From: Oscillospiraceae bacterium
Lineage (GTDB): Bacteria; Bacillota; Clostridia; Oscillospirales; Oscillospiraceae
NCBI GenBank assembly: GCA_017409205.1
Contig: JAFQTF010000049.1
Coordinates: forward strand, 1 to 33,465
DNA length: 33,465 nt
Direction: 5' to 3'
Positions 1,443 to 26,056 of the stretch are shown piece by piece (position 1 is the stretch's first letter; every line of letters starts with the position of its first letter). The notes beneath the pieces were generated by a model. The model did not search any database, was not told where the DNA came from, and saw only the letters and a list, made by a program, of their open reading frames with translations. The translations under genes were made by a program, and so were the position numbers.

Positions 1443-3830
1443 TTAAACAGCTCGTGTCCATTCCGTAAGCAGCAGGCCGGGAATCATCCACACCAGCTGA
1501 TACAGCAGCACATGGGTGGGGGTCAGCAGATCCGTAATGCCCATATATGCCAGTGCAGCCATGATCAGCATACCCAGAATACCGCCCACCAGATGGATCG
1601 CCACACCCAGACGTGAAGCTGTCCGCAGCGCCTTCGCACCGCTGACAGCATAGGCATAGGATGCCAGATCATCCCGGGTAGCCAGTGCCAGCGCCGGTGC
1701 CTCAGGATCCACTGCTTCTACGCCCAGTTCTCCGCGAACCGTCTGGTCAGGGAAGGCAATGCGGCGGGTATTCACACTGAACTTTGCCCGCAGCAGGCTA
1801 TCCGTCAGCATAAAGTCACAGCCGGTCAGCACAGGCTTGATATTTCTGTTTCCGCACAGGGAAATAATACCTGCGGCAGAAGAACGCATCTTGGCATAGG
1901 AAATGGCAAACACAGCACTGAGCTGGCCGTCAATGGCGGCATATACCGCCTGGTTGACCATTGTACCCTCCGGGATCTCCACACCCATATCCTGGAGGAA
2001 GTCCAGAGTGCCCAGCAGCACAGGCTCATCACAGACCTCGCCGCCAATGCCGCCGCTGCCATAGTCCCGGAAATTGGCAACGCTGTGCTCCACACCATTG
2101 CGGCTTTCCAGCATATTCCGGAAAACATTCACCAGACCGCCGCCGGCAACACCGATCAGGGAAGTGGTATAGGACACCACTTCATCGGGATCCCGGTCGC
2201 CATAGAATTTCACACCGTTGAGCTTGGTGGTATTGGCGGGGAACAGATCCTCATCCCGCAGGGGGAATGCCGCCTTGCCGCACAGTCCCTTAACGCCCTG
2301 CCAGCCGCAGAACACAGTGCCTACCATGTGCAGCCGCCGCTCCAGCAGAGATGCCGGACGGGTCAGGGATACAAAGAAGCTGGCAGGAACCGCCACCAGC
2401 AGGCTGGTAGCAAAGATCTGGATGCCCATGCTCAAGCCATGGGTCATACCTGCAAACACAGCAATGCCAATGCATAGCAGGAAGCTGAACAGACAGTAGA
2501 TGCTCTGCACCTTTTCAGGGCCGGAGGGACGGTTGTACCGGTCCATGAACTCCTCAACGTCGCCATCCCGGCGAAGGATGCCCGGCAGACCTTCATAGAA
2601 ATCGGATTCCTTTACCAGTGCATTGAGCCGGACAGCCTTACGCAGACTATCCATCTGGGCCATTTCCGTGGTGTGACGCTGGTACCGGGCCCAGAGCGCC
2701 ATGGTGATCTCCAGACTGAATGCTGCGCAGCAGGGCACCCGCAATTCAGAAAGGCAGAACACCGCATCGGCACAGCAGGCGGCAAAGGTAATACCCAGCA
2801 TGGTATTGATGGTAAACCGGCCTCTGAACAGCTCTCCAATGCCGTCCATCAGCTGGCCGCAACCAAGGAAGGCAGACAGCAGCATTGCCAGAACCTGGCT
2901 GAAGATCACAAACCGCAGCCGGTTTTCGGGGATCATGTCCAGGGAATACATGGTGGTGGCAATGACGCACAATACCACCAGAACCAGATTCAGACCGATG
3001 GCGATCTGCATACCGGCAACACCGATTTCAGAAAGCTCGTAATACCGCTTTTCGGGACCCGCCACCAGTTTCTTCTTCAGCTCCCGCAGGCGGGTACGGG
3101 GGTTATAGATAATTCTGGCCTCTTCCTTCTGCTGTTCCTGAACCTCTGCAGCCATGGCAGCCACATCCCGGTCCAGAACCAGCGGATCCATGCGGATGGT
3201 AACATCATCGCCTGCGGCAGCCTCCTCTTCCGTTTCCGAAGAGAAGTGGGATGCAAAATCATCCACCCGGATGGTTTCATCTTCCGGCACAGCTGCCTGT
3301 GCGCCGGTCTGTTCCATGATCTGGGCAATCAGTTCGTTCATCCGGATGGTATCCATGGGGGGCTCCTCTTCCGGTGCTTTCCCAGATACTGTCTCCGGCA
3401 GATCGACCCGGATGGTGTCCGCAGAGGCCATCTGCTCCGGAAGTTCCCGGGGCTGCTCTTTGGCCAGTTCATCGATGAGTTCGTTCATCCGGATGGTGTC
3501 CATAGGCACAGAGGCTTCCTCCTCTGTCTTTTCCTCCTTCACCGCTTCCGCACCAGCCGGCTCCTCCGGCACAGCTGCAGGTTCTTCCGGCTGGACAGGC
3601 TCCACCTCTGCCAGACTGGCGATCAGATGGTTCATGCGAATGGTGTCCATGGGAGCAGATGCAGGCGCTTCTTCCGGTGCATCGGAGGAGCTTCCGTTTT
3701 CCCAGTCACCCAGCAGCTGTGCCAGATCATCGGACAGTTCCCCCAGATCCTCACCAGCTTCCGGCAAATCCTGGAATTCCCCCAGAATATCATCCAGATC
3801 AAATTCCTGTAATTCTTTATTGTCTTGCAT
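1443..3830 (-). CDS. Degenerate P-type ATPase-like membrane protein with N-terminal DTIRM repeats
   Basis: The product has 795 residues. Residues 1-240 are acidic and low-complexity, with six [D/V]TIR[M/V] motifs (Thr at 63, 112, 139, 161, 187, 211), three in the long form PMDTIRMN[H/E]LI spaced 49 residues apart. Residues 270-380 carry hydrophobic pairs, 445-490 another pair and 740-790 a final pair, the layout of a P1B-type ATPase. The segment VAVPASFFVSLTRPASLL (479-496) sits where the CPC helix belongs. AAFPLRDEDLF (520-530) replaces the DKTGT loop, VLTGCD (667-672) recalls the P-domain TGD motif, and DPEAPALALA (708-717) recalls GDGxNDxPAL. The actuator domain is largely missing. It therefore appears unable to autophosphorylate or bind metal in the canonical way. 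It follows rlmB by 20 bases in one operon. The gene is intact with GGAGG before its start, so it is not a decayed pseudogene. Homology is read by eye; function is unknown. Confidence 0.7.
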   Translation of the reverse strand: MQDNKELQEFDLDDILGEFQDLPEAGEDLGELSDDLAQLLGDWENGSSSDAPEEAPASAPMDTIRMNHLIASLAEVEPVQPEEPAAVPEEPAGAEAVKEEKTEEEASVPMDTIRMNELIDELAKEQPRELPEQMASADTIRVDLPETVSGKAPEEEPPMDTIRMNELIAQIMEQTGAQAAVPEDETIRVDDFASHFSSETEEEAAAGDDVTIRMDPLVLDRDVAAMAAEVQEQQKEEARIIYNPRTRLRELKKKLVAGPEKRYYELSEIGVAGMQIAIGLNLVLVVLCVIATTMYSLDMIPENRLRFVIFSQVLAMLLSAFLGCGQLMDGIGELFRGRFTINTMLGITFAACCADAVFCLSELRVPCCAAFSLEITMALWARYQRHTTEMAQMDSLRKAVRLNALVKESDFYEGLPGILRRDGDVEEFMDRYNRPSGPEKVQSIYCLFSFLLCIGIAVFAGMTHGLSMGIQIFATSLLVAVPASFFVSLTRPASLLERRLHMVGTVFCGWQGVKGLCGKAAFPLRDEDLFPANTTKLNGVKFYGDRDPDEVVSYTTSLIGVAGGGLVNVFRNMLESRNGVEHSVANFRDYGSGGIGGEVCDEPVLLGTLDFLQDMGVEIPEGTMVNQAVYAAIDGQLSAVFAISYAKMRSSAAGIISLCGNRNIKPVLTGCDFMLTDSLLRAKFSVNTRRIAFPDQTVRGELGVEAVDPEAPALALATRDDLASYAYAVSGAKALRTASRLGVAIHLVGGILGMLIMAALAYMGITDLLTPTHVLLYQLVWMIPGLLLTEWTRAV

Positions 3831-3850: not shown

Positions 3851-4684
3851 TTAGCCAAGGCGCTGACGCACCGCTTCATACAGCAGAATGGATGCAGCAG
3901 CGGAAGCATTCAGGGAAGAGATCTTTCCCTTCATGGGAATGTGTACCATGACATCGCAGTTCTTCCGCACCAGCTGGCTCATACCGTCGCCTTCATTGCC
4001 GATGACGATGGCCGCAGGGCCGGTAAGATCCGCCTTGTACATGGGAATGGAACCCTCGGCAGCGGTGCCGAAGATCCAGACACCCTTTTCCTTCAGTTCG
4101 CTGATGGCATTGTTGATATTGGTAACTCTTGCCACCTTCATATACTCCACCGCACCGGCAGAAGCCTTCGCCACGGTGGCTGTCAGGCCGACACTGCGGC
4201 GCTTGGGAATGATGATGCCATGGGCACCGGCACATTCGGCGCTCCGCATAATGGCGCCCAGATTGTGGGGGTCACTGAGTTCATCGCAAATCACCAGCAG
4301 CGGTGCTTCTCCCCGGGATGCAGCCTCCTCCAGCAGATCATCGATGGTAAAATAATCGTGGGCGGCTGCCAGTGCGATAATGCCCTGATGGGCCCGGGTG
4401 GTGGACATTTGATCCAGCTTCCGGCGGTCAACAGGCACCACCACGGCACCAGCCTCCTTGGCCTGGGCAGCAAGGCGCTGCAGACCCCGGTCGGTATCGC
4501 CGGCCGCCACAAAGACCTTGTCGATGGTACGTCCTGCCTTCAGTGCTTCGGTCAGGGCATTGCGGCCTTCCAGCTGGCCCTCCACTTCCTCCACGGCTGC
4601 AGGGCGCTCGGCAAAACGGTCAGCCCGGCGGGGAGCCTCCCTGCGCTGATTATCACGTCCCTGAGGACGGCGTTTTTCGTTCAT
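3851..4684 (-). CDS. rlmB: TrmH-family 23S rRNA 2'-O-ribose methyltransferase (RlmB-like)
   Basis: A SPOUT methyltransferase of 277 residues that would use S-adenosylmethionine to methylate a ribose in rRNA, in E. coli G2251 of 23S rRNA. After a basic disordered start come the substrate-binding domain (EGRNALTEALKAG...DKVFVA) and the SPOUT core with its three motifs: DPHNLGAIMRSAECAGAHG, IVIGNEGDGMS and SSLNASAAASILLYE, the last two forming the knotted cofactor site. The start at 4684 is chosen because GGAGG lies six bases upstream; an earlier in-frame ATG lacks one. It leads a two-gene operon with the P-type ATPase-like gene. Target specificity within the TrmH family cannot be fixed from sequence, so another rRNA or tRNA site is possible. 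Confidence 0.88.
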   Translation of the reverse strand: MNEKRRPQGRDNQRREAPRRADRFAERPAAVEEVEGQLEGRNALTEALKAGRTIDKVFVAAGDTDRGLQRLAAQAKEAGAVVVPVDRRKLDQMSTTRAHQGIIALAAAHDYFTIDDLLEEAASRGEAPLLVICDELSDPHNLGAIMRSAECAGAHGIIIPKRRSVGLTATVAKASAGAVEYMKVARVTNINNAISELKEKGVWIFGTAAEGSIPMYKADLTGPAAIVIGNEGDGMSQLVRKNCDVMVHIPMKGKISSLNASAAASILLYEAVRQRLG

Positions 4685-4742
4685 AGATATCCTCCATATC
4701 GGCAAAAGAGCCGTTTTCCTGCACATACTTATAGATGATAGC

Positions 4743-4771
4743 ATTGTAACAGAAAAACTTCATTTTCTCAA
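4743..4771 (-). promoter_or_regulatory. Sigma-A promoter of rlmB
   Basis: On the minus strand TTGAGA (4766-4771), a 17-base spacer and TACAAT (4743-4748). The start would be near 4736, giving a leader of about 50 bases. It is divergent from the ftsH promoter. Confidence 0.7.
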
Positions 4772-21102: not shown

Positions 21103-21280
21103 TTGCCATATTCCGTCAAACTGTCCCCCATTCCGGTTTCCCAAAGGCCGGAAACTGTCTTTCCGGGATGTACATTGTATACTACGCCGAATGTTTCTCC
21201 GTTTTTTTGTTTGTTTTGCACAGAAAGACATGTGTCCATGTGCCATTTTACACAATTTTCCGTCGGAGCAAAAGAAATCA
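21103..21280. other. Intergenic stretch between the MATE and EF-G-like genes
   Basis: About 180 bases before the EF-G-like promoter. It contains a T-rich patch (around 21200-21220). Open frames on both strands lack ribosome binding sites and recognisable domains. I see no gene or known RNA here. Confidence 0.4.
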
Positions 21281-21309
21281 TTGAAATCTATACGGATTTC
21301 ATGTATAAT
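21281..21309 (+). promoter_or_regulatory. Sigma-A promoter of the EF-G-like gene
   Basis: TTGAAA (21281-21286), a 17-base spacer and TATAAT (21304-21309). The roughly 60-base leader has a 7-bp hairpin (GGAAGGA-CCG-TCCTTCC) just before the ribosome binding site. Confidence 0.85.
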
Positions 21310-21375
21310 GGCACCATTCGGGTGTCTGGAGCCCAAATGGAAGGACCGTCCTTCCCGAAAGGAGTAAAAACGACT

Positions 21376-23439
21376 ATGTACACTGTTAACGCAATCCGTA
21401 ACATCTGCCTTCTGGGCCACAGCGGCAGCGGTAAGTCTGCCCTGGCTGAGAGCTTACTTTACATCACCGGTGCCATCGACCGTATGGGCAAGAACGCCGA
21501 CGGCAACACCGTAAGCGACTACGATCCTGAAGAGATCCGCCGCAATATTTCCATCTCTACCTCCGTCATCCCCCTGGAGTACAAGAACGTCAAGATCAAT
21601 GTTCTGGACACCCCCGGTGCTTTCGACTTCTCCGGTGCTGTCATGGAAGCTCTGCGCGCAGCTGACGCCGCTATTCTGGTCATGTCTGCCAAGGACGGCA
21701 TCACTGTCGGCTTTGAAAAGGCATGGAAGTACTGCGAAGAGCGCAACATGCCCCGCATGATCTTCATCACCAAGGTTGACGAGGACAATTCCGATTACAA
21801 CGCCACTTTCGAAGCTCTGCGCGAGAAGTACGGCAACAAGATCGCTCCCGTGGTGGCTCCTATCTGGAACGCTTCCCATAAGATCACCGGCGTCATCGAC
21901 ATCCTGAACAAGCGCGCATGGGAATCCGTTGGCCTGAAGCGTGCCGAGATCGATATCCCCGCCGACAAGGAGTCCGTTGTGGAAGAGTTCCACGATGCTC
22001 TGAAGGAAGCTGTCGCCGAGACCGATGAAGAGCTGATGGACCGTTTCTTCGAAGGTGACGACTTCACCTACGCAGAAATGATCAAGGGCCTGTACACCGG
22101 CGTCCGTGAGCTGAGCCTGTTCCCCGTGCTGTGCGGCTCCTCCGTCACCACTCTGGGCACCACTCTGCTGCTGGACTACATCACTGATCTGCTGCCCAAT
22201 CCCGTTCAGGGCAATTACCACAAGGCTACCACCGCCGATGGCAAGGTCGAAGAGTTCGTTGTCTCTCCCCAGGCTGCTCCCGCTGCCTTCGTCTTCAAGA
22301 CCGTTTCCGATCAGTTCGGCAAGTACTCCTTCGTGAAGGTCCTGTCCGGCGAGATCACCCCCGATACCACTCTGGTCAACGCCCGCACCGGCGAGACCGA
22401 AAAGCTGGGCCGTATGTACATCATGTGCGGCAAGAAGGCTACTGAAGTCAAGGTCCTGTCCTGCGGCGATATCGGCGCCTTCGGCAAGATGGACAAGGTC
22501 AAGACTGGCGACACCCTGTGTGATCCCCGTAAGGTCGTCTCCCTGAAGCAGATCCCCTACGCTGCTCCCTGCTACTCCATGGCCATCGCTCCCAAGACCC
22601 GCGGTCAGGAAGAAAAGGTCGGCACCGGCCTGAACCGTCTGAACGAAGAAGATCCCAGCTTCACCCTGGTCAACAATGCCGAGACCCATCAGCTGGTTCT
22701 GTCCGGCTCCGGCGATCAGCAGCTGGACGTCCTGGTTTCCAAGCTGAAGAGCCGCTTCGGCGTTGACGCTGTCCTGTCTCCCGCAAAGGTGGCATACCGC
22801 GAAAAGATCAAGAATAAGGTGGAGGCCCACGGCCGTCACAAGAAGCAGACCGGCGGCTCCGGCCAGTTCGGTGACGTTTGGGTTCGCTTCGAGCCTCAGG
22901 AAGAGCAGGATGAGCTGATCTTCGCCGAGGAAGTCTTTGGCGGCTCCGTCCCCAGAAACTTCTACCCCGCTGTTGAAAAGGGTATCCAGGAAGCTGTCCT
23001 GAAGGGCCCCCTGGCAGGTTACCCCATGGTCAACCTGAAGGCTGTCCTGTACGATGGCTCCTACCACCCCGTTGACTCCAACGAAATGGCATTCAAGCTG
23101 GCTGCTATCCTGGCTTACAAGGAAGCTATGCCCAAGGCCAACCCCACCCTGCTGGAGCCCATCGGCGCTCTGGCCGTCACCGTCCCCGAGGATTACGTCG
23201 GCGATGTCATGGGCGACCTGAGCAAGCGCCGCGGCCGTCCCATGGGCATGAACCCTGACTCCGATGGCAACACCGTCATCGAGGCTGAGGTCCCCATGGC
23301 TGAGATGAGCTCCTATGCCATCGACCTGCGCGCCATGACCCAGGCCCGCGGCTCCTTCACCATGCGCTTCGAGCGTTATGAGGAAGTGCCCAAGCAGTAT
23401 CAGGCCAAGATCATCGAAGACGCCAAGAACGAGGATTAA
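21376..23439 (+). CDS. EF-G paralogue (translational GTPase, FusA2-like)
   Basis: 687 residues with the five-domain layout of elongation factor G. The G-domain motifs differ from canonical EF-G: G1 is GHSGSGKS (14-21, not AHIDAGKT), G3 is DTPGAFDFSG (78-87, not DTPGHVDF) and G4 is TKVD (132-135, not NKMD). Domain IV carries HGRHKKQTGGSGQFGDVWV and domain V ends MTQARGSFTMRFERYEEVP. These variants mark the auxiliary EF-G family found beside true EF-G in many Firmicutes. Its role is unsettled, so translocation should not be assumed. The start is set by AAAGGAG 11 bases upstream; the open frame extends further up but across the promoter. No tufA, rpsL or rpsG is nearby, further evidence it is not the main EF-G. 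Codon bias and promoter suggest high expression. Confidence 0.9.
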   Translation: MYTVNAIRNICLLGHSGSGKSALAESLLYITGAIDRMGKNADGNTVSDYDPEEIRRNISISTSVIPLEYKNVKINVLDTPGAFDFSGAVMEALRAADAAILVMSAKDGITVGFEKAWKYCEERNMPRMIFITKVDEDNSDYNATFEALREKYGNKIAPVVAPIWNASHKITGVIDILNKRAWESVGLKRAEIDIPADKESVVEEFHDALKEAVAETDEELMDRFFEGDDFTYAEMIKGLYTGVRELSLFPVLCGSSVTTLGTTLLLDYITDLLPNPVQGNYHKATTADGKVEEFVVSPQAAPAAFVFKTVSDQFGKYSFVKVLSGEITPDTTLVNARTGETEKLGRMYIMCGKKATEVKVLSCGDIGAFGKMDKVKTGDTLCDPRKVVSLKQIPYAAPCYSMAIAPKTRGQEEKVGTGLNRLNEEDPSFTLVNNAETHQLVLSGSGDQQLDVLVSKLKSRFGVDAVLSPAKVAYREKIKNKVEAHGRHKKQTGGSGQFGDVWVRFEPQEEQDELIFAEEVFGGSVPRNFYPAVEKGIQEAVLKGPLAGYPMVNLKAVLYDGSYHPVDSNEMAFKLAAILAYKEAMPKANPTLLEPIGALAVTVPEDYVGDVMGDLSKRRGRPMGMNPDSDGNTVIEAEVPMAEMSSYAIDLRAMTQARGSFTMRFERYEEVPKQYQAKIIEDAKNED

Positions 23440-23502: not shown

Positions 23503-25974
23503 TCATTTGTCGTTTTTTCTATAAAGCATCCGGATGGAATTCAGCACACACAGCATAGCCACGCCGGAATCGGCAAAGACTGCCAGCCACATGGAAGCAT
23601 GACCGAAGAGGCCCAGAATCATGACTGCAAATTTGATGGCAAGGGCAAAGACCACATTCTGCCATGCCACCGTCTGGGTCTTTTTCGCGATCTCCAGTGC
23701 CTGAGGAATGGCTGCCGGGTCAGAGGTCATGAACACCACATCCGCCGCCTCAATGGCGGCATCCGCGCCGCTGCCCATGGCACAGCCTACATCGGCACCG
23801 GCCAGAACAGGGGCATCGTTGATGCCGTCACCCACAAACATCACACCGCCGGTCTCCTGCCGGATCTGCTGCAGCCGCTCCAGCTTCTGGTGCGGCAACA
23901 GCCCGGCATGTACACCATCCAGGCCCAGTTCCCGGCCCACAGCCTCCGCAGTCTGTTCACTGTCACCGGTAAGCATAACCGTAACATACCCTCCGGATCT
24001 CAGATCCTGCACCGCTTCCGCAGAACCTTTCTTCAGGCTGTCTGCGATCCGGACAAATCCGGCATAAACGCCCTCCACTGCCACCAGAACGATGGTGCCC
24101 CGGGCCTGTACCGCATCAAATACGACACCGTTTTCTTCCAGCAGCCGGGAATTGCCGCAGAGCACCGTCTTTCCGTCCAGCACTGCCCGGATGCCCTGTC
24201 CGGCGATCTCCTCCAGCGCTTCCGGCACTTTCAGGATCAGTCCCTTTTCCCGGGCAGCCGCAGAGATGCTGACGGCAATGGGATGGCTGGACTGCTGCTC
24301 ACAGGAGGCGCAGAGCGCCAGCAGTTCGTCACCGCCCTCCACCTGCTGCACAGAGAAATCACCCTTTGTCAGGGTACCGGTCTTATCCATGACCACGGCC
24401 TTCACAGCGCCCATGGCTTCCATGGACTGGCCGCCCTTGAACAGGATACCCTTCCGGCTGCCCACGCCAATGCCTGCAAAGAAGGCCAGGGGAACAGACA
24501 ACACCAGAGCACAGGGGCAGCTCATAACCAGGAAGGTCAGCGCCGTATAGACCCAGTAGTGCCAGTCACCCGTCACAAGAGAGGGGATCACCGCAACAGC
24601 GGCTGCCCCGAAAACCACGATGGGGGTATATATTCTGGCAAAACGGGTGATAAACCGGTCAATTTTCGGTTTGCTGGCAGCTGCGTTTTCCACGCTGTCC
24701 AGAATCCGGGTAACCATGGATTCCGACAGCGGCTTTTCCACCTTCACCGTCAGCTGACCGGAGATATTGATGCAGCCGGACATCACACTGTCCCCTGCCG
24801 TTACCCGGACCGGCACTGGCTCGCCGGTGATGGGCGCCGTATCGATGCGGCTTTCGCCGCTGACCACTGTACCATCCAGCGGGATCCGGTCACCGGGCCG
24901 TACCAGCACTGTTGCTCCGGGGAGTACCCGTTCGGCCGGAGTGACCCGCACCTTGCCCCGAACCAGCAGGTTCACCGTCTCCGGCCGCAGATCAATGGCT
25001 TCCATGATCTGGCTGCGGCTGCGTTCCACTGCCCGGTGCTCAAAGTATTCTCCCACCCGATAGAACAGCATAACGCCCACAGCCTCAGGCGCCTCGCCAA
25101 TGAGAAATGCGCCCAGGGTGGCAACACTCATCAGGAAATTCTCATCAAACACATGGCCCTTCACCATATTTTTGGCTGCTGTAGCCAAAATCTCCCGTCC
25201 CAGCAGAATATAGGCAGTGATGCAGCTGATGAGCGCAGGGATACCGGCCCCCAGGTGATCCAGGACCAGTCCCAGAACAAAGAGCGCCGCGCCCAGAAGC
25301 AGAACCGTTTTCTCAGAAACCGGCTGTCTCTCCTTCTTTTCCCGGGATCCTGCGTCAGCTTCCGATCTGGCTGCAATAACGATGCCGTCTTCCACAGTAC
25401 GGGCCAACGCCTGAAGTTCCGGGATCAGAACATCCGGATTCTCTGCCGTCAGCCGCAGCTGTCTGGTGGCAAAGGTGATGGTTGCCTCCATTACGCCGGG
25501 ATGTGCATTGAATTTGGCTTCCATTTTGGCCGCGCAGTTGGCACAGCCAAGATTTTCCATCAGATAAATGCGGGTGACACCGCCGGAATGAACCGGCTTT
25601 TCATGACTACATTCATGATGATGGGCATGCCCGCAGCCGCAGTCGTGATAATGTGTATGATGCTCATGACCGCAGTCGCAGTCGTGATGATGTGTATGAT
25701 GCTCATGACCGCAGTCGCAGTCGTGATGATGTACATGGGCTTCCGCCGTGGGATCCTCCCGGGGAACAATGACAATTCCGTCCTCCACCGTCCGGGCCAG
25801 CGTCTGAAGCTCCGGAATCAGGGCATCCGGATCCTCTGCTGTCAGCCGCAGCTGTCTGGTGGCAAAGGTGATGGTCGCCTCCTTCACACCGGGATGTGCA
25901 TTGAATTTGGCTTCCATTTTGGCCGCACAGTTGGCGCAGCCCAAATGCTCCATACGATATATTTTCTTTTCCAC
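23503..25974 (-). CDS. Zn2+/Cd2+/Pb2+-exporting P1B-type ATPase with duplicated metal-binding domain
   Basis: 823 residues. Two N-terminal HMA-like domains (4-70 and 134-201, each GCANCAAKME) are almost identical. They are separated by a His/Cys-rich linker (80-126) of three 13-residue units. The core has eight predicted membrane helices, the actuator motif TGEPVPV, CPC at 486-488 in MSCPCALVLS, the phosphorylated Asp530 in DKTGTLT, and GDGINDAPVL. The last helices show NVVFALAIK and FADSGVAMLC, matching the N(x7)K...DxG pattern of the Zn/Cd/Pb subgroup. The start is a GTG at 25974, because AAGGGAGG ends seven bases before it; an ATG 14 codons earlier has no SD. It is CadA/ZntA-like and probably metal-regulated, but no regulator gene is adjacent. 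Confidence 0.95.
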   Translation of the reverse strand: MEKKIYRMEHLGCANCAAKMEAKFNAHPGVKEATITFATRQLRLTAEDPDALIPELQTLARTVEDGIVIVPREDPTAEAHVHHHDCDCGHEHHTHHHDCDCGHEHHTHYHDCGCGHAHHHECSHEKPVHSGGVTRIYLMENLGCANCAAKMEAKFNAHPGVMEATITFATRQLRLTAENPDVLIPELQALARTVEDGIVIAARSEADAGSREKKERQPVSEKTVLLLGAALFVLGLVLDHLGAGIPALISCITAYILLGREILATAAKNMVKGHVFDENFLMSVATLGAFLIGEAPEAVGVMLFYRVGEYFEHRAVERSRSQIMEAIDLRPETVNLLVRGKVRVTPAERVLPGATVLVRPGDRIPLDGTVVSGESRIDTAPITGEPVPVRVTAGDSVMSGCINISGQLTVKVEKPLSESMVTRILDSVENAAASKPKIDRFITRFARIYTPIVVFGAAAVAVIPSLVTGDWHYWVYTALTFLVMSCPCALVLSVPLAFFAGIGVGSRKGILFKGGQSMEAMGAVKAVVMDKTGTLTKGDFSVQQVEGGDELLALCASCEQQSSHPIAVSISAAAREKGLILKVPEALEEIAGQGIRAVLDGKTVLCGNSRLLEENGVVFDAVQARGTIVLVAVEGVYAGFVRIADSLKKGSAEAVQDLRSGGYVTVMLTGDSEQTAEAVGRELGLDGVHAGLLPHQKLERLQQIRQETGGVMFVGDGINDAPVLAGADVGCAMGSGADAAIEAADVVFMTSDPAAIPQALEIAKKTQTVAWQNVVFALAIKFAVMILGLFGHASMWLAVFADSGVAMLCVLNSIRMLYRKNDK
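25615..25731 (-). repeat. Three tandem 39-bp repeats encoding a His/Cys-rich linker
   Basis: Within the P1B-ATPase gene three consecutive 39-bp units encode HHHDCDCGHEHHT, the same again, and a diverged HYHDCGCGHAHHH. The first two are almost identical at DNA level, which indicates recent expansion. These residues are likely to bind several metal ions. Confidence 0.9.
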
Positions 25975-26000
25975 GAAATCGCCTCCCTTTATTTCGATAT

Positions 26001-26056
26001 ATGAGCAATCATTCATGTGTTATCATCAGTATACTACTGCCGGGACTGTCTGTCAA
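26001..26056 (-). promoter_or_regulatory. P1B-ATPase promoter with a possible metal-repressor operator
   Basis: On the minus strand TTGACA (26051-26056), a 17-base spacer and TATACT (26028-26033). Just downstream of the expected start is an imperfect inverted repeat ATGAATGATTGCTCAT (26001-26016), similar in size and AT-richness to ArsR/SmtB-type operators. The promoter is clear; the operator is a guess. Confidence 0.6.

Follow-up and report, generated by a model that had tools for sequence, protein, structure and literature searches.

The motifs DKTGT, TGE, CPC and GDGxxND have catalytic roles in P-type ATPases, and pseudoenzymes are familiar among kinases and other enzymes. An exact-term search of one open-access library found no description of a dead P-type ATPase family. 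FHA domains, as a general rule, recognize phosphothreonine. Their choice of ligand depends on the pT+3 residue, as described in PMC5549992. In mycobacteria the envelope factors MurJ/MviN, CwlM and FhaA are, by the account in PMC6180346, under phosphothreonine-based control that involves a PASTA kinase and an FHA domain; MurJ carries a pseudokinase domain, and CwlM phosphopeptides (NDRPTGTFTFAELLA) bind the FHA domain of FhaA. Streptococci reportedly lack FHA domains, yet the kinase juxtamembrane region is phosphorylated there, and for this reason the authors expect other readers (PMC12077195).

We analysed a gene in a window of 33,465 nucleotides (the whole stretch of DNA studied; contig JAFQTF010000049.1 of an Oscillospiraceae bacterium), whose product, judged by its sequence, is almost certainly a dead ATPase, an old pseudoenzyme of P1B descent. 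The gene (1443..3830, on the minus strand, like all of its parts and rlmB) encodes 795 residues from an ATG and, as had been read from the DNA, its frame is unbroken. It was the sole match in its own 1.76-Mb genome (76.6% complete), i.e. it is single-copy. It begins with an N-terminal acidic tail (residues 1–244; 3099..3830) with 66 D/E and 15 K/R, the gain of some 240 acidic residues noted earlier, followed by a conserved juxtamembrane stretch, RELKKKLVAGPEKRYYEL (residues 249–266; 3033..3086), in which P259 and E260 are invariant in 44 sequences. The first group of membrane helices (residues ~266–385; 2676..3035) is supported by hydropathy for 266–365 and by eye for 366–385. A short loop (residues ~386–440; 2511..2675), in which the TGE columns of the alignment are gapped, takes the place of the actuator domain. 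VAVPAS (2379..2396) stands at the place of the CPC helix with its Pro kept. A P/N-like cytoplasmic region (1626..2366), defined by profile matches to P1B ATPases, contains RDEDLF (2241..2258) at the place of DKTGT and TGCD (1815..1826) at that of TGD. The last membrane helix pair (residues ~736–791; 1458..1625) was found by hydropathy for 737–771 and by eye for the last helix, and LYQLVW is conserved in this region. Directly upstream, 20 nt away and on the same strand, lies an rlmB-type SpoU methylase gene (3851..4744; Pfam).

As a single sequence, the 795-residue protein matched nothing in Pfam, and NCBIfam gave one match, weak and irrelevant (E 0.63). The relationship to P1B ATPases that had been proposed by eye was borne out by profiles. 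A profile of 23 order members (A3) matched the LpCopA structure 3rfu with E 5.4e-28, a profile of 44 genus members (A2) matched the ATP7B-type copper ATPase 7si3 with E 1.8e-7, and the two halves of the family matched each other with E 8.5e-69; the homology to P-type ATPases covers the M3–M4 and P/N regions. The NCBIfam CopA model was matched by 14 of the 23 order members (best E 2.9e-16, accepting E up to 0.1). The Pfam E1-E2_ATPase model gave a weak match in 2 of these 23 (best E 0.65) and none in the 44 genus members. The window also encodes a canonical Zn/Cd-type P1B ATPase (23503–26016, minus strand) with TGE, CPC, DKTGT, TGD and GDGIND, which makes it a ready comparison for the dead protein; it has, by eye, two heavy-metal-binding-like segments with His-rich repeats between them, of which Pfam HMA marks one. 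Against this protein, hhalign gave 98.5% for A3 and 89.8% for A2, and plain BLASTP gave nothing significant. Ordinary P-type ATPases (PF00122) were present in 59 of 60 relatives.

We compared the cores (the last 570–600 residues) of 141 sequences, 44 of the genus and 97 of the order, counting columns in a family alignment that included a true archaeal ATPase (L009). The sequence-only reading had placed CPC, DKTGT and TGD by eye where the alignments also put them. At GDGxNDAPAL, the window's PALALA stretch aligns just past a gap, and the GDGxxND residues themselves are deleted in the family. That reading had also taken homologues with DKTGT as the sign of a merely decaying copy, and DKTG was found in none of the 141 cores; neither was GDGxxD. 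(One order member, L043, has DKTGS at residue 191 of its tail, outside the core.) The TGE columns were gaps in 44/44 genus and, depending on the column, 89–94 of 97 order sequences, and the tripeptide occurred anywhere in the core in 16/141, near a chance estimate of ~10; what is left of the actuator domain is a loop of ~55–75 residues, a range set by where the preceding helix is taken to end. The Pro of M4 is kept in 44/44 genus and 68/97 order sequences, but CPC is not: the window has VPA in its place, and CPS occurs somewhere in 2 of the 141 (G321 and G429). The loss of the catalytic motifs that had been claimed holds in the relatives compared here.

Other positions were traced in the same way. 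Asp occupies the catalytic Asp column in 26/97 order sequences and falls outside the six commonest residues there in the genus; one column further on, Asp occurs in 26/44 and 64/97, respectively. The N-domain His column has no His in the genus (0/44), and His is not among its six commonest residues in the order, whereas GxG retains its Gly in 44/44 and 95/97. The Asp of TGD is kept in 40/44 and 94/97.

The core is under purifying selection, with dN/dS of 0.05–0.24 in 13 pairs, and the tail is looser (0.17–0.66 in 13 pairs). The core values argue that function was changed rather than lost. Of 60 related genomes, the window's own included, 59 have a homologue, the sole miss being a genome that is 55% complete. 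Across the order, 142 of 147 genomes contained the family at E 1e-40 or better; the five below this cut-off (G348, G374, G395, G406 and G428) may hold weaker homologues. This spread, together with the core dN/dS, upholds the earlier view that the changes look selected. At E 1e-35 or better, a scan of the class matched 15 of 291 genomes, 12 of them within the order, and the score, coverage and length of the other three matches resemble those of ordinary CopA. L009 and a ClpB-like false match, recognized by eye (L069), were kept out of the family counts. Read from these sequences, the family is a P1B-ATPase relative that lost its catalytic and metal-binding motifs before the order diversified. 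Since it is kept by 142 of 147 genomes, the protein probably matters to the gut bacteria of this order.

The gene keeps the same upstream neighbour in most loci: in 134 of 144, rlmB directly precedes it on the same strand. Of the remaining ten, six have too little upstream sequence and four fail the adjacency rule (overlapping stop-to-stop frames in two, a split gene downstream in one and no rlmB match in the last). Downstream of the pseudo-ATPase, an EF-G-like gene was found in 11 loci, including L044:6163-8277 and L061:5537-7681, with two confirmed by Pfam. The window's own EF-G-like gene is elsewhere (21103–23439, plus strand), adjoining the canonical ATPase. In L058 and L044 the family gene is seemingly split into two ORFs, and one genome (G017) has two family copies (L063 and L066), both with tails free of the strict DTIR motif defined below.

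We then turned to the tail. The sequence-only reading had described six copies of [D/V]TIR[M/V] at steps of roughly 22–27 residues, with one step seemingly skipped. Six copies there are, with the consensus corrected to [D/E/V]TIR[M/V]: DTIRM at Thr63 (3633..3647) and Thr112 (3486..3500), DTIRV at Thr139 (3405..3419), DTIRM at Thr161 (3339..3353), ETIRV at Thr186, previously numbered 187 (3264..3278), and VTIRM at Thr211, followed by D-P-L (3189..3203). The other five threonines had been numbered correctly. The steps are 49, 27, 22, 25 and 25 residues. Six copies are well above chance (mean of 0.00045 and maximum of 1 in 20000 shuffles). Part of this number is, however, internal duplication, as three of the six lie on 32-nt direct repeats (within 3328..3653, minus strand, at 147-nt steps, 84–91% alike) that encode DTIRMN(E/H)LI copies.

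Beyond the window, the strict motif [DENQ]-T-[IV]-R-Phi-[DENQ] numbered 34 copies, spread over 25 of the 44 genus tails, where shuffles gave 0.03. In the same tails its Ser and reversed forms had no copies and its Lys form one. It was absent from the other 19 genus tails and from all 23 order tails (two of them with 0 and 17 residues). Elsewhere in the genomes, the 37 listed loci with the motif (L070–L106) otherwise have it in frame only in unrelated or very short ORFs. A looser form, [DENQ]-T-x-x-Phi, occurs at 86 sites in 39 of 44 genus tails, including at least 14 of the 19 without the strict one. These looser sites prefer D at −1, I/V at +1, R at +2, L/F/M at +3, D at +4, P at +5 (26 of 86 sites) and V/L/I at +6, and hydrophobicity at the tail sites peaks at T+1, T+3 and T+6. 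The form T-x-x-[FMY]-x-P-[VILA], picked after seeing these tails, has 28 copies in the genus against 0.65 expected, with one copy of its Ser form; simple shuffles, which ignore local composition, underlie the motif expectations. The tail motif, taken as a sequence pattern, is non-random and threonine-centred and looks like a kinase or FHA site.

A second motif lies at the very N terminus. In the window it reads FDLDDILGEF (residues 10–19; 3774..3803), and FSLDDILAEF-like motifs were present in 42 of the 44 tails of the genus and in 45 of 89 from outside it, with a shuffle mean of 0.12 for each set. A search of the first 90 residues of ORFs in 226 records found none outside the family, as judged by locus and length. 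The order-wide family, the pairing with rlmB and this second motif, absent from the sequence-only reading, are stronger facts than the six repeats. Some tails differ in kind: L042 (G048), G354 and G431 have TGR[IV]-like repeat arrays, spaced a few residues apart and unlike the acidic tails of the genus, and the tail of L006:5983-8220 has an [EA]TRR[IRM] array at 10-residue steps beside a DTIRLD site.

The threonine motif fits threonine phosphorylation by a PASTA kinase, as far as a pattern of residues can suggest. PASTA domains were found in 60 of 60 related genomes, though this domain may also occur in penicillin-binding proteins; in the window's own genome two adjoining genes were read by eye as a PP2C phosphatase and a PASTA kinase. 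FHA domains were found in 41 of the 60 genomes. One of them, in the window's own genome (L131:5277-6986, minus strand), is part of a fusion with an FtsW/RodA/SpoVE polymerase, and the neighbouring gene (L131:3892-5292, minus strand) encodes a penicillin-binding transpeptidase. Among the 37 genus genomes, 35 matched the polymerase. G017 gave no FHA hit, its match had no FHA part and the FtsW/RodA part contained an internal stop, so the count for the fusion is 34 of 37.

The fusion also occurred in 2 of 23 other order genomes. As it was promising in the genus and in two more genomes, we tested it on 99 order genomes, of which 90 gave usable tails and nine were dropped (ORF off the contig, or tail shorter than 60 residues). 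It is patchy, with 33 of 147 order genomes carrying it (E below 1e-100). Outside the genus, T-x-x-Phi occurred at 1.43 times the expected number in 28 tails from genomes with the fusion and 1.40 times in 60 tails without it, an equal excess (p = 0.49) that led us to reject the fusion as a general reader. The T-x-x-[FMY]-x-P-[VILA] form numbered 3 against 0.53 and 4 against 0.84 in these two sets, respectively, and S-x-x-Phi stood at 1.16 and 0.89 times expectation. Enrichment of T-x-x-Phi was little or nil in some families (1.03 and 1.28 in f17, 1.06 and 0.88 in f23), and the ratio was 0.83 in f1 tails without the fusion. S-x-[RK]-Phi was enriched in the 28 fusion-bearing tails (29 against 13.4). 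Together with the weak values in f17 and f23, this makes threonine specificity clear in the genus but not universal. A threonine-specific motif with a hydrophobic +3 residue was found in the genus, and in weaker form in the pooled order tails, with some families lacking it.

A preserved body with a flexible, threonine-marked tail suggests a signalling or scaffolding job. The preference for Thr and the +3 rule in the genus lead us to infer phosphothreonine control. We propose that the dead core may serve as a membrane-anchored binding platform, whose long tail would hold FSLDDILAEF as a motif for docking a partner, together with at least one [DE]-T-x-x-Phi site. The threonines of these sites would be substrates of a PrkC-type PASTA kinase, and a phosphothreonine reader would then bind the phosphorylated tail; the best candidate reader in the genus is the FHA domain fused to the FtsW/RodA-type peptidoglycan polymerase. 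With a kinase-marked tail and such a reader, the protein would tie envelope growth to kinase signalling. We hold these steps with different confidence. That the protein is a kinase-responsive scaffold is a tentative reading, to which we give somewhat less than an even chance, and the same caution attaches to phosphorylation of the tail threonines by a kinase, which is plausible but falls a little short of probable. That an FHA domain reads the tail phosphothreonines is unlikely. The full scheme, in which a transport ATPase became a kinase-controlled scaffold across the order and the FHA–FtsW/RodA protein of the genus reads the tail and recruits the dead pump to cell-wall synthesis, is a shade less likely again. 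If true, it would amount to the conversion of a pump fold into a signalling platform; the tail supplies concrete candidate phosphosites and a concrete candidate reader.

The same tail could work without a kinase. The Thr motifs may be plain docking peptides that bind a folded partner and are not phosphorylated, which would leave a scaffold free of kinase control; we consider this unlikely but a serious contender. The residue preferences flanking the Thr would suit such peptides, amphipathic helices are conceivable for copies such as DTIRMNELIDEL, and the separate FSLDDILAEF motif itself suggests docking use of the tail. However, in the genus Thr is never swapped for Ser in the strict motif while positions +1 to +6 vary, and the common Pro at +5 favours an extended peptide over a helix. 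That the protein has kept or gained another activity, as a HAD-type phosphatase or as a passive membrane channel or sensor, is improbable. The retained TGD Asp, the frequent Asp one column past that of DKTGT and the nearly invariant Gly of GxG speak for it, but the scarcity of Asp in the catalytic column, the complete loss of GDGxxD and the N-domain His, lacking in the genus and not a common residue in the order, speak against it.

The gene neighbourhood bears on the kinase-responsive scaffold from another side. The neighbours, rlmB and, in 11 loci, the EF-G-like gene, point to translation rather than the envelope and count against that reading. They would instead suit a membrane tether that acts with RlmB in translation or ribosome maturation, an idea whose support is gene adjacency and which is weakened by the wide occurrence of rlmB without a pseudo-ATPase partner; we rate it as quite improbable. 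Finally, the loss of the catalytic motifs could by itself be taken for a decaying pump gene. Its retention in nearly every genome of the order and the low dN/dS of the core rule this out, leaving it virtually no chance.

Compared with the P1B ATPases CopA and ZntA, the family shares profile homology, the order of helices, the M4 proline, the TGD Asp and the N-domain Gly. Unlike them, it has no DKTGT, TGE, CPC or GDGxxND, its actuator domain is reduced to a loop, and it has a long N-terminal tail with short motifs. The FHA–FtsW/RodA fusion of the window's own genome places a candidate phosphothreonine reader in the same cell, one that has no order-wide statistical link to the motif. The proposed scheme recalls, as an analogy only, the mycobacterial envelope factors: in that case a flippase carries a kinase domain as the pseudoenzyme, whereas the present one would be a dead ATPase bearing candidate phosphorylation sites in its own tail.
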